The notes under the pieces were generated by a model. That model made no database searches, was not told the DNA's origin, and worked only from the letters and a program-made list of their open reading frames with translations. A program made the translations under genes and the position numbers. Positions 6,285 through 24,780 of a DNA stretch of 39,836 nt are shown one piece after another (the first letter of the stretch is position 1; each line of letters starts with the position of its first letter). The stretch is from a virus: positions 1-39,836 of IMG/VR virus record IMGVR_UViG_3300018083_000064. The stretch is one strand, 5' to 3'.

Positions 6285-7162
6285 CAGTCGAACGGCACGT
6301 CGTCGGCGGGCTCGGTCGGGTCGCCCGACACCGGCAGCGTGTAGTCGTCGGCGTCGCTCGCCGCAGGCACAGCCTCGGGCTCGGGCTCGGCCTTCGCCTG
6401 CTGCTCGGCCGCCTTCGTCTGCTCCTCGAGGAGGCGTTGGCTGAGCGCCTGCACGATCGAGTCGCCCCGATCGGCGGGCACGTCTGTCCAGCGGGCGACC
6501 TTGTACTTGTCGCTGATGCCCTTGCCCCACACGGCCTCTGAGCTGCCCTTGTCGCGGCCGAGCAGGTCGTCGAGCTTCGTCAGGATCGCCTGTATCGCCT
6601 GCCTGTGCCCCGGCCCGAGCGTGGCGACCTTGGCGGCCGCCTGCTGCTGCTGCGTGACGGGCTGATGATCGGAGTCGGGCTCGTCGCCTGTCGGTATCAG
6701 GAACGTCTTCCATATGGCGTAGCGCATCGCGCCGGTCATCGCCTTGTACAAGCCCTTGTCGCCCTGGTCGGCGCCCGACCCGACGAACTCGATCGACTCG
6801 CGCTCGCCGGTGTCGCCGTCGACGAACGTCATCAGGCCGTGCACGATCGTCAGCGACCCGTGCATTTGTACGTTCGGCCAGCTGACGAACGTGGCGACGT
6901 TGCGTGACGCGAGCTGCGACCTGACGGCCGCCATCAGGTCGTTCTCGGTCGGGTAGTCGTATGAGTATTCGCCGCCTCCTTTCATGCGTACGACGGCGTG
7001 CCCTGAGCGTGGCACGCGGTCGACGGCAAGCTGTACCTCGGCGAACTTACCGGCGAGCGTCTGTGCGACAGCAGGCACAGCGGGCTCGGCGGCGGGCTCG
7101 GCCTGCGCGGCCTTCGGCGTGGGCTTCTTGCGGGCGCGTGGTGCGGGTGTAGGATCGGTCAC
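6284..7162 (-). CDS. ERF-family single-strand annealing protein
   Basis: 292 residues, GTG start with AAAGGAG. The diagnostic ERF signature is at about 128-161: Gly-Ser-Gly-Ala-Asp-Gln-Gly-Asp-Lys, then AMTGAMRYAIWKTFLIP. A low-complexity Ala/Pro N-terminus precedes the core. The C-terminus is acidic and ends in DDVPFD, a tail like that of SSB proteins that recruits partners. ERF proteins anneal complementary single strands in phage recombination and replication. Gp157-like, HNH and helicase genes follow in the same operon; no dedicated exonuclease is recognised. Confidence 0.9.
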   Translation of the reverse strand: MTDPTPAPRARKKPTPKAAQAEPAAEPAVPAVAQTLAGKFAEVQLAVDRVPRSGHAVVRMKGGGEYSYDYPTENDLMAAVRSQLASRNVATFVSWPNVQMHGSLTIVHGLMTFVDGDTGERESIEFVGSGADQGDKGLYKAMTGAMRYAIWKTFLIPTGDEPDSDHQPVTQQQQAAAKVATLGPGHRQAIQAILTKLDDLLGRDKGSSEAVWGKGISDKYKVARWTDVPADRGDSIVQALSQRLLEEQTKAAEQQAKAEPEPEAVPAASDADDYTLPVSGDPTEPADDVPFD

Positions 7163-7202
7163 TAGGTCTCCTTTGTTCGCGCTCCTTCAGGGGGACTCTG
7201 CG

Positions 7203-7252
7203 GTCAGGTAAGGGGTCGCCCGCTGTTGCCGCTCGGGCGACCCCCGCCTGAC
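7203..7252 (-). terminator. extended hairpin after the 182-aa gene
   Basis: An 11-bp stem (7212..7222 with 7234..7244, GGGGTCGCCCG) is extended by GTCAGG/CCTGAC arms at 7203..7208 and 7247..7252. It starts a few bases after the stop codon of the minus-strand gene ending at 7257 and precedes the ERF gene, so it may terminate or attenuate the early transcript there. No U-run follows, as is common in GC-rich actinobacteria. Confidence 0.6.
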
Positions 7253-7256
7253 TTAC

Positions 7257-7805
7257 CTACTCGGCCTGATTGACACGCAGGGCACGGTGCCCGTAATGCC
7301 GTGTGCGGCCCCTGTACACCCGCGGCGTCGCCTTACGGCCCTGAGCGACGACGGTCGTGCCCTTCGTGCCGGGCTTCGCCTTGGCCCGCTCGGCCTTGTA
7401 CGCGGCCGCACCGGCCTCGGTCACCTCTGCGTCGGCGGCGTCGGGCTTCGCCTTTTTGTACGCGTCCTTCGCCTTTTTCGCGGCGTTCTCGGCTGCCCTA
7501 CCGGCCTCCGTCTTTCGCCGCTTGCGCCCGATGATCGGATCACGCAGCGAGAACGAGAACGGCTGTATCGGGTCACCGGCGTCGAACGCGATCACGTACC
7601 CCTGCACCGCGTACGGCGTCAGGTAGATCAGCCGGTCGCCTTCGCCGTCGGTGAACCTGATCGACTGCGTGTCGACGTCGATGCGGTGCGCGTCGGGCAG
7701 CGTGCGCGCGAGCGCCTGCGCGACAACACACAGGTACGAGTCGTTGCGTACCGCCTTCTCGATGTCCTTGTCGGTGACGACTACCTTCACTTGTTTTCTG
7801 GCCAT
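7257..7805 (-). CDS. 182-aa basic hypothetical protein
   Basis: Starts at ATG 7805 behind GAAAGGAAAG. The N-terminal 90 residues look like a compact alpha/beta domain (KQVKVVVTDKDIEKAV, then beta strands with RFTDGEGDRLIYL). The C-terminal half is Lys/Ala-rich and ends in an Arg-rich tail, typical of nucleic-acid-binding tails. No family recognised. A strong hairpin follows its stop. Confidence 0.75.
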   Translation of the reverse strand: MARKQVKVVVTDKDIEKAVRNDSYLCVVAQALARTLPDAHRIDVDTQSIRFTDGEGDRLIYLTPYAVQGYVIAFDAGDPIQPFSFSLRDPIIGRKRRKTEAGRAAENAAKKAKDAYKKAKPDAADAEVTEAGAAAYKAERAKAKPGTKGTTVVAQGRKATPRVYRGRTRHYGHRALRVNQAE

Positions 7806-7852
7806 GCCGCTTTCCTTTCTCGATTGTCGGGGCGCCCACCTTACTCGGTGGG

Positions 7853-8047
7853 TCACGCGGGCTCGTACGCCTCGGGCTGTATCAGCAACGGCTGCAATCC
7901 CTTCTCCTTTCGTCGGGTGTTCGCGCGCACCATGCATTCCTCGCACACCGGCCTGAGCTTGTCGGCGATCGGCACCCTGGGCACGTACTCGGGGTCGAAC
8001 GAGAACGGCTGCTTGCAGCCGAAGCAGCGGTCGGTGACGTAGGTCAT
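7853..8047 (-). CDS. 64-aa zinc-ribbon-like protein
   Basis: ATG 8047 overlaps the upstream stop (ATGA). Two CxxC pairs (Cys8/Cys11 and Cys35/Cys38) spaced 23 residues apart make a likely four-Cys zinc site. Basic region after the second pair. Possible nucleic-acid or protein adaptor. Confidence 0.75.
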   Translation of the reverse strand: MTYVTDRCFGCKQPFSFDPEYVPRVPIADKLRPVCEECMVRANTRRKEKGLQPLLIQPEAYEPA

Positions 8048-8274
8048 GGCTTCGCCTTCACGACCGCCTTCTCGATCTGTTCTTCCATGAACGGGGCGCT
8101 GACGAACTCGGCGACGCACTCGGTCATGTGCTGCTCGCACAGGTCGATCTCGTAGCGTTCGGCGCGGCCGCCAAGGTGGGCGACGTCGAGCGTCAGCATG
8201 TACCGCTGCGCCTGCTTGTCGAGCGTGCCGTCGAACCGCATGCCGCAGCGGTCACAGATCGTCGGTGTGGCCAT
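8044..8274 (-). CDS. 76-aa zinc-finger-like protein
   Basis: ATG at 8274 is chosen because AGGAGG lies five bases upstream; the adjacent GTG would be too close. CDRC near the N-terminus and CEQH about 40 residues later give a probable CxxC-CxxH metal site. It overlaps the next small zinc-ribbon gene, so two small zinc proteins are made in tandem. Function unknown. Confidence 0.75.
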   Translation of the reverse strand: MATPTICDRCGMRFDGTLDKQAQRYMLTLDVAHLGGRAERYEIDLCEQHMTECVAEFVSAPFMEEQIEKAVVKAKP

Positions 8275-8286
8275 CACAGCCTCCTT

Positions 8287-8409
8287 TCATCGGGCGATCA
8301 GCCCGTACAGGGCCAGGCCCGCGAGGGCCAGGCAGAACGCGACGGCCGCCCACCATCCGACCTTGCGCAGCTCGTCCTTGAACGTCGGCTCGCGCTCGTC
8401 GTCGGTCAC
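8287..8409 (-). CDS. 40-aa single-span membrane protein
   Basis: GTG at 8409 overlaps the upstream stop (GTGA). A charged N-terminus of about 16 residues precedes one hydrophobic helix (about 19-38), ending in Ala-Arg. Third tiny membrane protein of the early block. No family recognised. Confidence 0.65.
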   Translation of the reverse strand: MTDDEREPTFKDELRKVGWWAAVAFCLALAGLALYGLIAR

Positions 8410-8777
8410 GGCGTGTCCTTGCGCTGCTCGATCAGGTCGCGGGTGATGACCTCCTGCACGGCGTCGAACACGGGCTCCCACGAGCGGGCCGTGACGGCCT
8501 TGTACACCCCGGCGCCGTGGTCTTGCACGGCACGAGCGACCGCCGATCGCTGGCCGGTCGCGACGTGCTCGTCGAGCACCTGCCAGGTGCCCGGCCCTAG
8601 CTCGTCGTACCACCTGAGCACCACGTACGGGCGCGTCACGCGCCCGTCAGCGTCAGGCACAGGCTCGGGCTCGGCCTGCTCGGGCTCGACGTCGCCCTTC
8701 TTCTTGCGGGGCTTCTTTATCGCGGCCAGCCCGGCGTCGGCGTCGGCTTGCAGCTGCTCGACGTCCATGTCGGTCAT
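8406..8777 (-). CDS. 123-aa hypothetical protein
   Basis: ATG at 8777 overlaps the upstream stop (ATGA). A Lys- then Pro/Glu-rich N-terminal 45 residues is probably disordered; the C-terminal 75 residues look folded (PYVVLRWYDEL, WQVLDEHV, then helices). No domain recognised. Part of a chain of coupled early genes. Confidence 0.7.
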   Translation of the reverse strand: MTDMDVEQLQADADAGLAAIKKPRKKKGDVEPEQAEPEPVPDADGRVTRPYVVLRWYDELGPGTWQVLDEHVATGQRSAVARAVQDHGAGVYKAVTARSWEPVFDAVQEVITRDLIEQRKDTP

Positions 8778-8950
8778 GGCCGCACCTGCCGGTACACGCG
8801 CACGCGGGCGATGACTTCGGCCTCCGTCCAGCCGCGCAGCGCCAGCTCGCTTTCCAGCACCGTCGTTTCGTAGAACGACAGGGTCGGCACCCGCGCACGC
8901 AGCCAGGCGTCGGTCACGCGGTTCGGTATGAACGTGTCGGCGCCGATCAT
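8774..8950 (-). CDS. 58-aa hypothetical helical protein
   Basis: ATG at 8950 overlaps the DUF932 stop (ATGA). Mostly helical, with a C-terminal half rich in Arg, Glu and Val. No family recognised. Confidence 0.65.
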   Translation of the reverse strand: MIGADTFIPNRVTDAWLRARVPTLSFYETTVLESELALRGWTEAEVIARVRVYRQVRP

Positions 8951-9963
8951 CGGGTGAGCAGGGCGAACGCCCTGTCCTTCAGCTTCGACTCGTCGATGAC
9001 TCGGTTGAACCGGGCTTCGTCGCCTTTTCTGACTTTCGTATACCAGTCGGAGTACTCGGCGACGGCGTTCAGGGCCGCCCACCGTGTGCCCCTGACGTTC
9101 TCTAGGTTCGGCGACTCGTGGTACAGGCCGCCGATCAGGGTCAGCGACGCCTGCCTGTTCTTTTCGGTGCGGCTGTCGTCGGGCTCCCCCGCCTTTTTCG
9201 GGGCGAGCTTGTCGAGGAACGACCTGAACTCGCGGTCGCTCATCGGCTCGCCGATCAGCTGCTCGGCCGTGCTGGTCAGCTCGGCCAGGTACGTGTACGT
9301 CAGGCCGAGCGCCCGCCGTGCCTCGTCGAGCTTGTCGGCGTAGTTCGTGGTGTGCCTGACCTTCCACTGGCGGGGCGACCCGGCGAGTGCGAGCCGCAGC
9401 GTGTTCGTGCACACGACCCTGATCGGCGTGACCGCGATCGTCAGCGCCATCGACCCGTCGTGTGCGTTCGACAGCAGCAGGTACGGCTCGATCGTTTCGT
9501 CTTCCCATCCGGCGATGCGTATGTCGTCGCCGAGCTTCGACACGAGCGCGACCTTGGCGCCGCCCTTCAACGCGACGGCGCTGATGCACCTGACGTCGCC
9601 CGAGTCGAGGATAGCGTCGCCTAGCTCGGCCAGCTCGGCCTGCTGTATCGGCCGGTAGCCGTCGCCGACGATGCCGAGCACCTTTTGGTCGGTCGACCTG
9701 ACCATCGCCTTGCGGCCGGGCGCCTTCAGCCGGGTGACGCCTTGCGTGGCCGCGACGTCCCATCGTTCGACCTGCCAGTCGAGCCCGCCGATCGTGAGTG
9801 CGTCACGCCACGTCAGGTCGGGGTCGTCGACGACGGTGCCGAGCCCGTGCCAGGCGGGCTCACGGTTCGTGAACACGCCCGACTCGAACCCGCCGTCGCC
9901 GTACTCGCTCCTGTCCCACCCCTTTCGTCGTTCGTCGAGCGGGTTGCGTATGTCAGTCGCCAC
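8947..9963 (-). CDS. DUF932 phage/plasmid-like protein
   Basis: 338 residues, GTG start with GGAAGGAG. The sequence fits the DUF932 (phage/plasmid-like) family: EPAWHGLGTVV near residue 35, GIVGDGYRPIQ, the central LLLSNAHDGSMALTIAVTPIRVVCTNT block, and a helical C-terminal half. These proteins are common in phages and plasmids and often accompany replication or recombination genes; their biochemical role is not settled. It is the first gene of the early leftward operon. Confidence 0.88.
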   Translation of the reverse strand: MATDIRNPLDERRKGWDRSEYGDGGFESGVFTNREPAWHGLGTVVDDPDLTWRDALTIGGLDWQVERWDVAATQGVTRLKAPGRKAMVRSTDQKVLGIVGDGYRPIQQAELAELGDAILDSGDVRCISAVALKGGAKVALVSKLGDDIRIAGWEDETIEPYLLLSNAHDGSMALTIAVTPIRVVCTNTLRLALAGSPRQWKVRHTTNYADKLDEARRALGLTYTYLAELTSTAEQLIGEPMSDREFRSFLDKLAPKKAGEPDDSRTEKNRQASLTLIGGLYHESPNLENVRGTRWAALNAVAEYSDWYTKVRKGDEARFNRVIDESKLKDRAFALLTR

Positions 9964-12963: not shown

Positions 12964-13365
12964 TCAGCACTTCCTCGGGTCGGGCACGACAGCGAGTAGC
13001 TGCTGCCGGGCGGACACATAGCCGGGGTGATCGAGCGGTGCGTCGCCGCCGCCGGTCGGCGGCGTCGTCGCTTCGACGATGACGGCCTTGACGAGCGCCC
13101 TGTTCTCGTTCGTGGCCTTGCAGTTGTCGCGGCTCAGCTGCGACGAACGGACGAACCCGACGGCGAACAGCACGATAAGGGCGACGTAGGCTGACGCGAG
13201 CCACGGCGCCGACGCCATCTTCTGCTTGATCGACTCCCGCGCAATCTCGACGGGCGCCCCGTTCGACGTGACTTCGACGCTGACGGTTACCGGCTGCTGT
13301 GGATCTTTAGGAGGATCAGCAGCAGGATCGTCGTCGTCACGATCAGCAGGTACACGGTCGTCCAT
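12964..13365 (-). CDS. single-span membrane protein of the lysis cassette
   Basis: 133 residues from ATG 13365, which is well spaced from AGGAAGG; a GTG three codons earlier overlaps that site. A very acidic, Pro-rich N-terminus (about 1-25), a strand-like region, one transmembrane helix (about 54-73), then a 60-residue C-terminal part with two Cys, the last being the final residue. One-span proteins with an external tail in this position may act as spanin-like or holin-regulating proteins, but no family is recognised. Confidence 0.65.
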   Translation of the reverse strand: MDDRVPADRDDDDPAADPPKDPQQPVTVSVEVTSNGAPVEIARESIKQKMASAPWLASAYVALIVLFAVGFVRSSQLSRDNCKATNENRALVKAVIVEATTPPTGGGDAPLDHPGYVSARQQLLAVVPDPRKC

Positions 13366-13384
13366 ACGTACCACCTTCCTCGCC

Positions 13385-13597
13385 TCACTTCGCGTCCTTC
13401 TCGTCCTCCTCGTGCTTTTTCTCGTCCTTCCGTAGGAACGCTGGTAGCCCCATCATCGACCCGAACACGACCAGCAGCTCGACGTTCGGCTGCTTCGCGT
13501 ACAGCGTCTGGTGGGCGACCCCGAGCAGGCCCGCGAAGAACAGGATGCCGTCGCGTAGCTCGCGCCAGCTCGGATGCTGTTTCCTTGGCTCGGCCAC
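13385..13597 (-). CDS. 70-aa holin-like membrane protein
   Basis: GTG 13597 follows the upstream TGA directly and has AGGAA in range. The central part (about 17-56) holds two short hydrophobic segments, DGILFFAGLLGVAHQT and VELLVVFGSMMGLPAFL, and the tail is highly charged Lys/Glu. This short pattern with GLPAF before a charged tail is common in lysis regions of actinobacteriophages; I recall it only as unassigned or holin-like. Confidence 0.65.
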   Translation of the reverse strand: MAEPRKQHPSWRELRDGILFFAGLLGVAHQTLYAKQPNVELLVVFGSMMGLPAFLRKDEKKHEEDEKDAK

Positions 13598-13867
13598 TCA
13601 TGTTCCTCGCCACAGCCCATAGGCGATCATCAGGCATCCGGCGACGTAGAACGGTATCCGCCAGTTGAACGGGTCGCCGTCCATGATCCGGTCGATGGCG
13701 TTGCCGATCGTGCCGACGAGCAGCACCATCAGGCCGATGCTGGCCATTTTGTCGCCCCACCTGCGTGACCTGTCGAACGGGACGCCGACGAGCGAGCCGA
13801 CCGCCAGGCATGACGCGCCGATCACGGCCAGCCAGGCGACTTCGGCGCCGATCGCCGCGACGATCAC
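13598..13867 (-). CDS. 89-aa membrane protein (three spans), holin candidate
   Basis: GTG 13867 overlaps the endolysin stop (GTGA). Three hydrophobic segments (about 1-26, 42-58, 70-85) separated by charged loops. A class I holin could look like this, and it directly follows the endolysin gene, the usual holin position. Confidence 0.65.
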   Translation of the reverse strand: MIVAAIGAEVAWLAVIGASCLAVGSLVGVPFDRSRRWGDKMASIGLMVLLVGTIGNAIDRIMDGDPFNWRIPFYVAGCLMIAYGLWRGT

Positions 13868-14604
13868 CGCAGGACGCGTATCCAGGCTTCGACTTGCGAT
13901 CGTGACCGGTCGCGGATCATCACCTGGCCGGGGCTGCCGGTGTTGCCCTCGATCGACCTGAACCCCTGCCCGACCGTCCATTCCAGGAACATGCCGGTGT
14001 GGTCTGGTACGCCGCCGTCCCAGTCGAACGCGATCACGTCGCCGTGGCGGGGCGTGCCGACCGCCATCAGGTGATTGCGGTGATTGACGGCGTCGCCCGA
14101 CATGAACGGCACGTACGCGTACGTGTTGCCGCGCGCGAACGCGACCGAGTACGGGTCATGGCACCACGTCACGAACATCGCGCACCACGGGCCGCGCATG
14201 CCGTACCAGTCGCAGAACTCGACGTCGTTGTCGCCTACCTCACGCACACCTAGCTTCGTGCGGGCTCGCAGCACGGCCTTCGGCCCGATCTGCTGGTCTT
14301 TGTCGGCCATCGCTTTCTTGCGGGCCGGGCGCCGGGCCTGCCACTTCGCCGGTAGCTTCGCGTCGCCGACGAGGATGTTGTCGAGCGTCGGCCCGTATGA
14401 GTGGTTCACGAGGTCGGTGGGGAACCCGAGCAGGAACTTGGCCCGGTAGGCGGCGGCGCCGGTGACGACCCCGTACTGGCTGTCGATGGCCCCGGCGAGG
14501 AAGTCGCCGTACCTGTTCGTGTTCAGGTGCCGTTGCGCCGTTTTGACGTTCGGGCCGCGCGTCGGCGGCGACGTCAGCGTCAACGTGACGGGGAAGTCGG
14601 TCAT
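13864..14604 (-). CDS. CHAP-domain endolysin with N-terminal peptidoglycan-binding domain
   Basis: 246 residues. The N-terminal 80 residues look like a peptidoglycan-binding module (GPNVKTAQRHLN, AYRAKFLLGFP). The catalytic domain (about 105-246) is of the CHAP/NlpC cysteine type: PWCAMFVTWC with Cys141, GDVIAFDWDG, His202 in PDHTG, and Glu219/Asn221 in IEGNT. It would cleave peptide bonds in peptidoglycan to release progeny. There is no signal peptide, so a holin is needed. The ATG has no clear Shine-Dalgarno site. It opens the lysis cassette. Confidence 0.85.
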   Translation of the reverse strand: MTDFPVTLTLTSPPTRGPNVKTAQRHLNTNRYGDFLAGAIDSQYGVVTGAAAYRAKFLLGFPTDLVNHSYGPTLDNILVGDAKLPAKWQARRPARKKAMADKDQQIGPKAVLRARTKLGVREVGDNDVEFCDWYGMRGPWCAMFVTWCHDPYSVAFARGNTYAYVPFMSGDAVNHRNHLMAVGTPRHGDVIAFDWDGGVPDHTGMFLEWTVGQGFRSIEGNTGSPGQVMIRDRSRSQVEAWIRVLR

Positions 14605-19776: not shown

Positions 19777-22700
19777 CTACTTCCCGAAGGCGGCGGCGGC
19801 CGCCCGCTCGGCGCGTTTCATGTTCGCGAACTGATCCTCGGGCTGCCGGTTGAAGTTCTGTACGACGGTGACGCCGGCAGCCCCGGCCGTTGATCCCATC
19901 GTCATTCCGCCAGGGCCGGGGCTGAATATGTTCGATCCCAGGTCGGTGTAGAACCCCTGCCTGGCCGACCATACGGCGTTCGCCTCAGCCTTTATCCGCT
20001 CCTGTATTTGCGCCTCGATCTCGGCGGCGGTCGGGCCTGAGTCGCCGCCACCTGCGCCGGTGTCGCCGCCGGTCGAACCGCCGGTGTCGGTGCCCTCGGT
20101 GTCGTCGGTGCCGCCGTCGACGGGGCCGGGCGGCGCGGTCGGCTGGTCGGCGATCGGGGCGACGACGCTGATGCCGAGTGACGGGTACTGCTTCTTCCAC
20201 CACTCGACCCCGCTGTCTTTCATCGACTGCCGCCAGTCGGAGTACTTGTCGAACAGCCGTTTCTCGTCGGCGGTGCGGTTGTCCTTGTCCTTCTTCGCGC
20301 CCGACACCATCACCTTGAACTCGTCGTAGGTCGGGGCGTTCACCCCGGCCACGTAGCCGCCCGCCTGGATCAGCGCGTCGACCTGCGCCTGCGTCGTGTC
20401 GGTCATCTCCGGGGTGGTGTCGTCATCCGAGATCTGGTCGGCGCCGCCGCCTCCACCCCCGCCGTCCTGGCCGCCACCTGGCGGCTTCGGCTTCGGCGGC
20501 TTCGGCTTCACCTTCGGCGTTTCGTGGTCGAGCAGCCAGGCGGCCTCGTCGAACTTCTTTTTCCAGGCGTCAAGGCCGGTGAGCTTGCCGCCGTTCTTCC
20601 ATTTCCACCATTTCTCGAACGCTTCTTTGCCGTGGCCGATCGCCTTGCCGAAGTAGTAGCCGCCCCACTTGAACGCCTTGCCTTTTTTCACTTCGGATTC
20701 GTACCGGCCGTGTTTCACAGCCCACTTGTCGTGTGCTTCTTTGTCCCATAGCAGGGCGGCGGGGCTGGCGGTCGAGCCGCCGATCGCGGCGTACCCGATG
20801 CTGAGCGGATTGAACCCGATGTGCAGGTGCGGTACCCCGGCGCCCTCGCCTGACTTCGCGAACGCCTCACCGGCCGCGACGTGCCCTGACACGCGCGACG
20901 ACACCATGTGCTTGTAGAACACGTCGCCGCCACCGTCGAGGTACAGGTGCACGCCGTAGCCGCCGTACCGTGACGAGCCCGGCCCGCCGTACGACGAGTG
21001 CCCGAGCGACCCGGCGCCGACCGCGACGATGTTCGTGCCGTGCGGGACCATGATGTCCCAGGCGTCGTCGTCCTGCCATATGTAGCCGTTCTCGGTTCGT
21101 GAGTGCGTGCCGCCGCCGGGGCCGCCCCCGAGCGACCCCCTGGGCGACGTCGGGAAGTAGTACCCGCCCTTCGCCATCGGCCCGCCGACCGTGACGCGCC
21201 TGAGCCCGACGGCCCGGCGCCACTCGTCGGGTGACAGGCCCGCGGCTGCGGCCGCCCTGGCCTGATGGATCGTCGTCATCACGGCCTCGCCTGGCGCGAC
21301 CATCGCGGGCACGCCGTCGACGCCGTACGACGTGCCGGGGTACAGGCCGATCAGGCCGCCGTGCTGCAACGTCGGCAGGTGCCCTATGTCGGGGCCGGGC
21401 AGGAAGTTGAACGCGTCGATGCCCTTGTTTATGACGCCGACGGCGGCGTTCCACACGGTGCGTATGCCGCCCACGAGGGCGCGGCCGATCGCGCCGCCTA
21501 TGTCGCCGATCTTGCCGGGTATGCCGGTGATGAACCCGACGACGACCCCGACTTTGTCCTGCACGAAGTTCTTGACGTCGTTCCAGCCGCCCTTCAGCTT
21601 GCCCCATATTTTCGAGCCGACGTCGCCGATCTTGCCGGGTATGTCTTTCACGAACCCGACTATGTCGCTGGCCTTCCCCTTGATCCAGCTGGCGGCCGAC
21701 GTGACGGCGTTCTTGGCGGCGTTGAACGCGTTCACGATCGCGTTCTTGACGGCTGTCATCGCCTGCACGATCTTGTCGCGGAAAAGGATGATCGCGACGA
21801 CGGGGCCGCCGATGATCGCGGCGAGCAACTTCCAGTGATCCTTGATCCAGTTGAACGCGACCTGCATCGCGCCCCACAGCTTGTCCACGATCGCCCTGAA
21901 CGTCTCGGAGTGCTTGTAGGCGATCACGAACGCGGCCACGAGCGCGGCGATCGCGATGATGACGAGCCCGATCGGGTTCGCGTCCATGGCGATGTTCAGC
22001 AGCCATTGCGCGGCCGTCACGAGCTTCGTCACGATCGCCAGCGCCTTGAACATCTCGACGATCTTCGTGATGATCGAGAACGCGACGAGCGACGCGCTGA
22101 CGGCAGCGAACGCGCCGACGAGTATCGCGAACGCCGTCTTGTTCCGTTCGGCCCACCCTGCCAGGCCAGCCAGCAGGTTCGCGACCCTTTCGACGACCGG
22201 CGCCAGCAGCGACCCCATCGCCTCTTGCAGGTTCTCGGTCGCGACGCCGATCTTCTCGGCGGCCCCGGCGCCGCTGTTGCCGTACGCCTCGGCCTGCCCC
22301 GCGAACGTGCCTTGCAGCTTCGCGAGTATCGTCTGCTGCGTCGCGGTCTTGTCGGCCGCCTTCGCCGCCGCGATCTGCTCGTCGGTCGCGTGCTTCGTCG
22401 ACTCCTTCAGCTTGTCCTGTGCGGTCGTGACCGGGGCTATGTCGATACCGAGCTTTTTCGCGGCACCCGCCGACCCCATGTACGCCTTCTGCAGCAGCTT
22501 GCTTGCGGCTTCGAGGCTCATGCCTTTCGCGCGGGCTATGTCGGCCGCGAGCCCGTTCAGCTTCAGCGCCTCGGTCACGTCGCCGGTCGTCCTGACGAGG
22601 TTCGTGAACGAGTCCTGTAGGTCTTCGTCGTCGAACGCGCTGAGCTGCGACTGCTTCTTGATCGTGTCGTCGATCTGCTTCGAATATTTCTCGTAGCTGA

Positions 22701-22965
22701 TGCCTGACGCCTTCAGCTGCGCCGTCATTTTCGCCTGCGATATTTCGGCGTCCTGGTACGCCTTGACGGCCTTCGTGGCGCCGACCGCGAGCAGCCCGAG
22801 CCCGGCGGCCCCGGCGACCCCGGCCGCCTTCCCCATCGTCGACATCCGCGACGTCGACGCCTTCAGGTCGCCCTCGGCCTCGCGCAGCCCCTTCTTCCAG
22901 CGGCTCGTGTCGGCCTCGATGATGCCGACGGCCTTGGCGACGGTCGACGACGACCCGAACGCCAT
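19777..22965 (-). CDS. tape measure protein with degenerate M23-like peptidase domain
   Basis: 1062 residues; ATG overlaps the chaperone stop (TGATG). The N-terminal 250 residues are helical (DTSRWKKGLREAEGDL near the start is typical), followed by long hydrophobic segments (about 285-350 and 383-398). The region about 630-740 looks like an M23 metallopeptidase (WDIMVPHGTNIVAVGAG, GYGVHLYLDGGG, PHLHIGFNP). The first zinc-ligand His of the usual HxxxD motif is replaced by Asp, while the HxH is present, so activity is uncertain. A Pro/Lys and Gly/Asp-rich disordered stretch and a C-terminal helix follow. Length sets tail length; about 1000 residues suggests a tail near 150 nm. Confidence 0.9.
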   Translation of the reverse strand: MAFGSSSTVAKAVGIIEADTSRWKKGLREAEGDLKASTSRMSTMGKAAGVAGAAGLGLLAVGATKAVKAYQDAEISQAKMTAQLKASGISYEKYSKQIDDTIKKQSQLSAFDDEDLQDSFTNLVRTTGDVTEALKLNGLAADIARAKGMSLEAASKLLQKAYMGSAGAAKKLGIDIAPVTTAQDKLKESTKHATDEQIAAAKAADKTATQQTILAKLQGTFAGQAEAYGNSGAGAAEKIGVATENLQEAMGSLLAPVVERVANLLAGLAGWAERNKTAFAILVGAFAAVSASLVAFSIITKIVEMFKALAIVTKLVTAAQWLLNIAMDANPIGLVIIAIAALVAAFVIAYKHSETFRAIVDKLWGAMQVAFNWIKDHWKLLAAIIGGPVVAIILFRDKIVQAMTAVKNAIVNAFNAAKNAVTSAASWIKGKASDIVGFVKDIPGKIGDVGSKIWGKLKGGWNDVKNFVQDKVGVVVGFITGIPGKIGDIGGAIGRALVGGIRTVWNAAVGVINKGIDAFNFLPGPDIGHLPTLQHGGLIGLYPGTSYGVDGVPAMVAPGEAVMTTIHQARAAAAAGLSPDEWRRAVGLRRVTVGGPMAKGGYYFPTSPRGSLGGGPGGGTHSRTENGYIWQDDDAWDIMVPHGTNIVAVGAGSLGHSSYGGPGSSRYGGYGVHLYLDGGGDVFYKHMVSSRVSGHVAAGEAFAKSGEGAGVPHLHIGFNPLSIGYAAIGGSTASPAALLWDKEAHDKWAVKHGRYESEVKKGKAFKWGGYYFGKAIGHGKEAFEKWWKWKNGGKLTGLDAWKKKFDEAAWLLDHETPKVKPKPPKPKPPGGGQDGGGGGGGADQISDDDTTPEMTDTTQAQVDALIQAGGYVAGVNAPTYDEFKVMVSGAKKDKDNRTADEKRLFDKYSDWRQSMKDSGVEWWKKQYPSLGISVVAPIADQPTAPPGPVDGGTDDTEGTDTGGSTGGDTGAGGGDSGPTAAEIEAQIQERIKAEANAVWSARQGFYTDLGSNIFSPGPGGMTMGSTAGAAGVTVVQNFNRQPEDQFANMKRAERAAAAAFGK

Positions 22966-23210
22966 CAGTCGACCATCCCGAGGGCACGCCTGCCCTGGTC
23001 GTGCGCGTCCTGGCGGGCCTGTTCCTCGTCGCGCAGCTGCCGCTGCTCGTCACCGAACCTGAGCAACACGGCCTCCTCGACTAGCAGCTGCTCGAGAGGG
23101 TCATGGCTGATACGCGGAAAGCTGGTCTGATACTCGACCACAAGCCTCGCAATCCTCCTCGCAGCCGTGCTCGTCGCGAAACAGCGCCCATCGTGAGATG
23201 GGCTCCACCC
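22965..23210 (-). CDS. tail assembly chaperone, frameshift-extension part
   Basis: No start codon of its own is needed: this 81-codon frame continues the chaperone gene after a predicted slip of -2 (equal to +1) at GGGGGG (23208..23213) and ends at TGA 22965, overlapping the tape measure start. The encoded part contains ARRIARLVVEYQTSF and LEQLLVEEAVLLRFGDEQ, a typical helical T-domain of gpGT-type chaperones. The frame lies exactly between chaperone and tape measure, as in lambda and HK97. Shift type and exact site are inferred. Confidence 0.6.
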   Translation of the reverse strand, partial: GWSPSHDGRCFATSTAARRIARLVVEYQTSFPRISHDPLEQLLVEEAVLLRFGDEQRQLRDEEQARQDAHDQGRRALGMVD

Positions 23211-23628
23211 CCCATAGGCGGCGGCCGGTGGCGTCCTCGTCGATCTCGCGTTGCGCGACCCTGAACAGGAAGTGGTAGTCGGCCGGTAGGAACAGCTCGT
23301 CCATGTCGGTGCCGTCGGGTATGGCGGGCTCGATCACCATGTTGCGGACGATGTTGTCCATGTACATGCGGGCGGCCAGCATGGCGTCGTCGTCGCCGTC
23401 CTCACCGGCGGTCGCGAACTGGCGGTGTATCTGTTTCGTCGATAGGGCGGTCATGCGGCGCAGGGTGGTCGGCAGGCCGCCCGACATGGCGTGCAGCTCG
23501 ACGTTGACGGGCCTGAGCAGCACCACGAGCCCTGACGGCAGCTGGCAGCGGCAGGTGCGTGCCTGCTTGAAGTCGGCGAGCGTGGCCACGCCACCGTTAG
23601 GCGGCGTGTGAGTCTCGGTGCTTGTCAT
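23101..23628 (-). CDS. tail assembly chaperone (G-type)
   Basis: 175 residues from ATG 23628 with GGGAGGAAA upstream. It sits between the major tail protein and the tape measure, the fixed place of the G chaperone. The sequence fits: a beta-rich N-terminus (LPSGLVVLLRPVN), helices with TKQIHRQFATAGEDG, IVRNMVIEP, LPADYHFLFRVAQREID. Chaperones coat the tape measure during tail assembly. Its 3' part overlaps the frameshift frame by more than 100 bases, with a GGGGGG slip site at 23208..23213. Confidence 0.8.
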   Translation of the reverse strand: MTSTETHTPPNGGVATLADFKQARTCRCQLPSGLVVLLRPVNVELHAMSGGLPTTLRRMTALSTKQIHRQFATAGEDGDDDAMLAARMYMDNIVRNMVIEPAIPDGTDMDELFLPADYHFLFRVAQREIDEDATGRRLWGVEPISRWALFRDEHGCEEDCEACGRVSDQLSAYQP

Positions 23629-23806
23629 CCGTTTCCTCCCAGGTATCGGATTCGACTTCAAGCTCGACGCACAGTTGCGCGGTGAGCTTGCGTGCCTCAG
23701 CGGCCTGCCGGTACGCGGCCGACGCTTTCTGGTGGGCGAGCCTGGCGAGTGACGCCAGCTCGTCGTCGTCGAGCGCCTTGCGCGCGTCACGGTGGCTGTA
23801 CCTCAT
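23597..23806 (-). CDS. 69-aa hypothetical protein between tail tube and chaperone
   Basis: ATG 23806 overlaps the major tail protein stop (TGATG), and the 3' end overlaps the chaperone gene by 32 bp. It is one long Ala/Glu/Arg-rich helix with a polar end. Small genes are unusual at this spot. No family recognised. Confidence 0.65.
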   Translation of the reverse strand: MRYSHRDARKALDDDELASLARLAHQKASAAYRQAAEARKLTAQLCVELEVESDTWEETDDKHRDSHAA

Positions 23807-24780
23807 CAGACGTCGAACGTGGCTTTCTGGTCCTTTATGACGACTGACATGATCGGGCTCGCCGCTGGCTTTTCGACGATCGTGGTCAGGTCGATCTCGA
23901 TCGGGTCGCCGCCGGGGTCGGCGTTCACGGGTACGGCCGCGAACCTGACTTGCGGCAGCAGGATCTGGCAGGACAGGTTCGCCGACGAGTAATAGGTGAT
24001 CTCGAACGCGTGCGTGGCCACGACGGCCGACAGGGTCGTTCCGGCGTCGGAGCCGTAGTAATGCTCGCGGTACTTCGGGAACGTCGTTGGCCCGCCGAAC
24101 CTGAGCAGCGCCGCCAACGTCACCTCGCGGTTGCCGGGGTCGATGTCCGAGAACGTGTAGCAGTCGGCCTGGAACCCGGCCGCGCCGTTTTCGATGCCGA
24201 GCGACACACGGCCGATCCGGTAGTCGATCGTGTCGAACTTGATGCGGTTGCAGGCGTCCATGTGCAGGTACGGGAACGTCGTGATGGCCGACAGCACGGT
24301 GTCGGTGGCTTCGAACGTCGCGGTCAGCCCGATCACGCCGATGGTCATAACGGGCGGCGACCCTGCGGTCGACTCGATCTGTATCGACGTGATCTTGCAG
24401 TCCTCGTAGCGTTCGGTGATGACGCCGCCGACCATCCGCCAGATCGTGACCCAGAGCATGTCGTTGCCTGGCGTGATCGTGTGCGTGTAGTTCGGGGTCG
24501 TGCCCGACTCGACGACGGTACCGAGGCAGGCGCCGAACACCATGCCGAGCCCGTCGGGGTGCATGTACACCGGGAACGAGCCCTCGATACGCATCTGCGA
24601 CGTGTAGCTGTCGCCGCCGTCACGGCCCGAGTCGGTCATGTTCAGCCGTGCCCTGTCCTTTATCGGCATGATCGACGGCGCCCCGGCCGTGCGGAACTTC
24701 ACGGTCGGCACCGACGCGGGTGTGCCCTTCGCCGACTGCTTGCCGATCGCGATGGTGCCGATACGCGAACTGATGCCCAT
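23806..24780 (-). CDS. major tail (tube) protein
   Basis: 324 residues, ATG with AAGGAGG. Position just before the chaperone, and a strongly beta-rich sequence starting GISSRIGTIAIGKQSAKGTPAS, with GSFPVYMHPDGLGMVFGA, fit the tail tube protein of siphoviruses (phage tail tube family). It polymerises around the tape measure to form the tube that carries DNA. Confidence 0.85.
   Translation of the reverse strand: MGISSRIGTIAIGKQSAKGTPASVPTVKFRTAGAPSIMPIKDRARLNMTDSGRDGGDSYTSQMRIEGSFPVYMHPDGLGMVFGACLGTVVESGTTPNYTHTITPGNDMLWVTIWRMVGGVITERYEDCKITSIQIESTAGSPPVMTIGVIGLTATFEATDTVLSAITTFPYLHMDACNRIKFDTIDYRIGRVSLGIENGAAGFQADCYTFSDIDPGNREVTLAALLRFGGPTTFPKYREHYYGSDAGTTLSAVVATHAFEITYYSSANLSCQILLPQVRFAAVPVNADPGGDPIEIDLTTIVEKPAASPIMSVVIKDQKATFDV

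Follow-up and report, generated by a model that had tools for sequence, protein, structure and literature searches.

A frameshift in tail assembly chaperone genes of the lambda gpG/gpGT type was reportedly described by Xu, Hendrix and Duda in 2004. The lambda gene lies between those for the tail tube and tape measure proteins, and a short G protein is followed by an extension, in another frame, that ends at the tape measure gene (PMC5009743). The same source cites the chaperone of the haloarchaeal virus HSTV-2 as very likely using +1. In influenza A a +1 shift at UCC_UUU_CGU produces PA-X, as proved by a junction peptide, and for this system it was argued that UUC is a better pairing partner than UUU for the anticodon of tRNA-Phe (PMC3498833). 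According to the authors of PRFect, a general motif for forward shifts had not been identified (PMC10885494).

The window, by which we mean the whole stretch of 39,836 nucleotides that was analysed, is a viral contig with the structural genes on the minus strand. The tail tube gene (Phage_tube_2, 23806..24780) is recognized by a match to PF18906 (E 3.7e-13) and the tape measure gene (19777..22965) by a match to phrog_58 (E 6.4e-30). Residues 635-718 of the tape measure protein also match peptidase M23, under the Pfam cut-off (E 2.6e-5). Between these two genes, as in the gpG/gpGT type, sits the chaperone gene. The zero frame, G, occupies 23101..23628 on the minus strand, with ATG at 23628 and TGA at 23103..23101, and encodes 175 amino acids. 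A 69-codon ORF (23597..23806), which has no family match in Pfam or PHROG searches, is placed between tail tube and chaperone and overlaps the start of the latter. The window chaperone itself has no Pfam or PHROG match. When a model of G (mean pLDDT 68) is compared with the PDB using Foldseek the best match is the HK97 tail assembly chaperone, at a level that is not significant. In BFVD weak fold matches are obtained to several proteins annotated as tail assembly chaperones, among them those of Madruga, Predator, Hawkeye, Onyinye and Papyrus.

The frame displaced by +1/-2 is open across the overlap with G and continues to a TGA at 22967..22965, which the tape measure ATG at 22965 overlaps by one base. 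The original prediction, that the chaperone ends at 23101 with the displaced frame open to the tape measure start, is accurate in these respects. The overlap between G and the extension is approximately 230 nt so the frames alone cannot place a shift. The choice of frame is simpler. The -1 frame closes 20 nt past the G stop and was rejected for that reason, leaving +1/-2 as the right one.

Direct searches with the window chaperone retrieve nothing from cultured phages, and neither does a single-protein scan of viral contigs. The chaperones of its relatives retrieve nothing from phages or plasmids, and two scans of genome contigs were also negative. Relatives were reached by other routes. The tail tube (54% identical) leads to L010, a contig where the chaperone is in two pieces, a G that is 38-40% identical and an extension placed in the +1/-2 frame. 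Here approximately 2.6 kb of extra ORFs (6963..9565) lie between tail tube and chaperone, unlike the arrangement in the window. The capsid gene leads to L018, and the contig to which it belongs, L036 in our reading, carries another such chaperone. A profile of the tube leads to L037 and L038, and a profile of the chaperone to L050 and L048, the last being the same sequence as L038. The distinct members of the family are six in number: the window, L010, L036, L037, L048 and L050. Five other distinct sequences therefore encode an extension homologous to that of the window and placed likewise with respect to G, and the +1/-2 frame is used in six out of six. Such conservation excludes sequencing error as the cause of the frame break. 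As in the gpG/gpGT type the extension is conserved in a different frame from G and reaches the tape measure gene, and the sequence comparisons provide good support for a real extension, reached from the tail assembly chaperone by programmed frameshifting into the +1/-2 frame. L003, L006, L009 and L014 carry different chaperones, with extensions judged by eye to be in the -1 frame. In L014 the tape measure ORF is seemingly interrupted, at about 13100..14100, by an intein-like stretch starting CLEQDAEALTRDRGWVRHGDLAAGDEIL, an assignment also made by eye.

Every G gene of the family contains exactly one TTT codon, and in all six it is followed by CGN. In the window these codons are TTT at 23181..23179 and CGC at 23178..23176, the candidate shift site UUU_CGC (23176..23181, minus strand). 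With the preceding codon included the sites read CTG TTT CGC in the window, CGG TTT CGA in L010, CGG TTT CGT in L036, ATC TTT CGC in L037 and CGA TTT CGT in both L048 and L050. Homology in the zero frame runs to the TTT codon and ends there; that of the extension, T, which in the window covers 22965..23177 on the minus strand (70 codons and the TGA), starts right after. Proteins fused by a one-base skip after TTT align across the junction in the family alignment, with RWALF/ATSTAARRI in the window, EWRIF/AASKTATRL in L037, EWRRF/VASTTATRL in L048, EYERF/VTSRAAVRM in L036 and RLARF/DALLRSDDAVQRI in L010. The junction phenylalanine occupies one alignment column in five of the six, and is three columns off in L010 because of an alignment gap.

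A comparison of L048 with L050 shows the switch at the nucleotide level. Substitutions before the site are distributed 12/9/46 by codon position, marking the third positions of the zero frame, and past the G stop 14/8/26, marking the third positions of the +1 frame. There is no change within the 24-nt dual-coding stretch. The switch in codon periodicity is best placed 384-456 nt from the ATG, and the TTT is at 408. The sequences conserve both frames and the way these relate, as well as the position of the switch and the TTT CGN pair. The part of G that is read only when no shift occurs (23101..23175 in the window) holds a cysteine cluster, CEEDCEAC, which L010, L037 and L048 lack in their short tails.

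TTT is a rare codon in these viruses, representing 2-11% of the Phe codons in the genomes of family members. In the minus-strand genes of the window there are five TTT against 267 TTC (272 Phe codons), counted from an ORF list in which some ORFs overlap one another, and the TTT CGN of the chaperone is the only one in frame. The product of the TTT fractions over five lineages is about 3e-7, a rough value given that related sequences are not independent. In 24 motif-bearing genes the junction Phe is TTT in every case compared to 15 of 129 other Phe codons (Fisher p 4e-18), although we caution that this p value overstates the case since genes were counted for having the motif and many are related. 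Exactly one in-frame TTT CGN is present in each of 21 genes checked. The -1 chaperones that served as controls, from phages with related tail tubes (TIN2, GMA7, Chelms, Orchid and Perlina), contain no TTT CGN.

We consider it very probable that ribosomes undergo a programmed +1 frameshift at the UUU_CGC of the chaperone mRNA. The tRNA-Phe would shift +1 from UUU with perfect re-pairing to UUC, C 23178 would be skipped, and with GCG (23177..23175) as the next codon, reading would continue GCG ACG AGC. Most ribosomes would produce G, and the remainder GT, a predicted fusion of 220 amino acids (150 of G and 70 of T) ending on the tape measure start codon. We infer the slippage itself, its mechanics and its efficiency from the pattern of conservation. 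By analogy with lambda gpG/gpGT (PMC5009743), from which the assembly roles and efficiency assigned to G and GT are also drawn, G may coat the tape measure protein while T may recruit the tube protein.

P-site slippage at +1 is the preferred reading because, of the sites where a P-site tRNA could re-pair, TTT_CGN alone is common to all of 14 chaperone overlaps (six from the family and eight from the Hafunaviridae), and because PA-X provides a precedent. The -2 site TGG GGG is present in two of the same 14. It counts against this mechanism that the A site is not obviously a slow one, CGC being in common use in the window. No consistent downstream stimulatory RNA structure was detected when z-scores were calculated for the six members, in a search for structures other than pseudoknots, and inspection by eye revealed no upstream Shine-Dalgarno-like element common to the members. 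A +1 shift driven by the stop codon, of the prfB or CCC_U type, was rejected since none of the codons preceding the G stop (CCA, CGA, GTG, GAC) is able to re-pair, and since the stop codons are not the same throughout.

The original prediction placed the programmed frameshift elsewhere, at a GGGGGG run on the minus strand (23213..23208) that is indeed read in the zero frame as TGG GGG GTG. The TTT CGC is 32 bases downstream of this run. Within the overlap of the window, P-site re-pairing at -2 is possible once and at +1 twice, at GGG_G and TTT_C, and TTT_C is chosen over the other two because of conservation. The -2 proposal is that tRNA-Gly on GGG slips back two bases, as in phage Mu, which is known to use -2 (PMC5009743) in the same kind of gene and with the same target frame. 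Re-pairing would be perfect at TGG GGG GTG, and L010 has TGG GGG AGG, a run of five G, at the same codons. These two are the only members with a run at that place. It is absent from L037, L048 and L050 whilst the GGGGG of L036 is nearby but offset, such that -2 re-pairing is impossible there. Moreover, zero-frame homology goes on past the run to the TTT codon, and the existence of the run is accounted for by a Trp-Gly pair, the gene being rich in GC. A Mu-like -2 shift is on these grounds highly improbable. What stands of the original prediction is a frameshift into the +1/-2 frame, for which the homologous extensions speak; the site lacks support since the run is not conserved, an outcome that the original prediction itself named as grounds for refutation, and the -2 direction lacks it too as the homology break lies elsewhere. 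A +1 shift at GGG_G inside the run, where GGG to GGG re-pairing would also be perfect in the window, meets the same objection from the continuing homology. There is no homopolymer codon at this point in L037, L048 and L050, and we give such a shift almost no credence.

An explanation of a different kind dispenses with frameshifting and treats the extension as a gene in its own right that overlaps G and is initiated separately, for example at the GTG at 23141..23139. This codon is in frame with the extension and has a GAGG three bases ahead of it, and in many records of related phages the two frames are left as separate ORFs. However, similarity between the extensions starts upstream of such starts, directly past the Phe codon, and a separate gene gives no reason for the rare TTT CGN to be invariant. 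A separate gene in place of the +1 shift at UUU_CGC is very unlikely, though some internal initiation may occur in addition to that shift.

The same codons are found in the haloarchaeal Hafunaviridae. The only TTT codon of the HSTV-2 chaperone occurs in TCC TTT CGC, eight codons before the stop and with an overlap of 57 nt, and in seven further records TTT CGC or CGT is likewise close to the stop, to give eight viruses in all. Three Hafunaviridae records are annotated as -2 and others are unjoined. In NC_062755, NC_062759 and NC_062760 (L058, L059 and L060) the note reads 'putative programmed translational -2 frameshift'; the overlaps hold TTT CGC or CGT, which points to +1, against these notes. 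HSTV-2, HF2, HRTV-5 and the others share with the window TTT CGC or CGT at the junction, a +1/-2 extension and the place of the gene, but differ in having archaeal hosts and contractile tails. A profile comparison of the two families is weak (20%) and covers T, beginning at the junction Phe.

A sample of 12 actinophage chaperones was drawn from the Foldseek BFVD group and from relatives of that group identified by tblastn. All 12 have their extension in the +1/-2 frame, and TTT CGC or CGT is at the junction in ten. One exception, Nocardia phage P3.1, has TTT CCT. The other, Mycobacterium phage Onyinye (L071), has no UUU_C in the overlap before 1341 and another putative site. The chaperone of Microbacterium phage Krampus (L076, 799..1669), with the junction GAG TTT CGT, carries the record note '-slipp is weird', and many actinophage records keep both frames as separate genes. 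The G parts are related to those of the window family according to a profile comparison (probability 83%). This group (Predator, Papyrus, Troll4, Krampus) resembles the window in that respect, in the codons at the junction and in the frame of the extension, but has other tail tube families and is too distant for pairwise search from the window. Common descent or convergence may account for the sites in the window, the actinophages and the Hafunaviridae.

With respect to better characterized systems, lambda and most others use -1 on a slippery heptamer (PMC5009743) whereas the window would use +1 at UUU_CGC. Closer in the signal itself are PA-X and the UUU_CGN of plant amalgaviruses (PMC5052127). 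In common with the window these have UUU then CGN, a +1 target, UUU to UUC re-pairing and no evident stimulatory structure; they differ in that eukaryotic ribosomes and unrelated genes are involved. In PA-X the UCC in the E site matters, whereas the E-site codon varies among the chaperones and UCC is seen in HSTV-2 alone. A literature search, which matched papers on eukaryotic viruses, a review and an unrelated paper, returned none that links UUU_CGN to tail chaperones, though an earlier mention is possible with key papers outside the search. Recoding of tail chaperones is known; what appears new, within the literature searched, is a +1 shift at the motif of PA-X and the amalgaviruses. We lean towards the view that UUU_CGN is the predominant +1 signal of tail chaperones in bacterial and archaeal tailed viruses, the same codon pair as in eukaryotic RNA viruses, and that many frameshifts whose records call them -2 or odd, or carry no annotation of them, would be +1 at this pair. 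A rule of six bases, TTT CGN towards the end of G combined with an extension in the +1 frame, would then let split genes be joined and the direction of the shift be stated. The comparison suggests that one pair of codons induces slippage in bacterial, archaeal and eukaryotic ribosomes alike.
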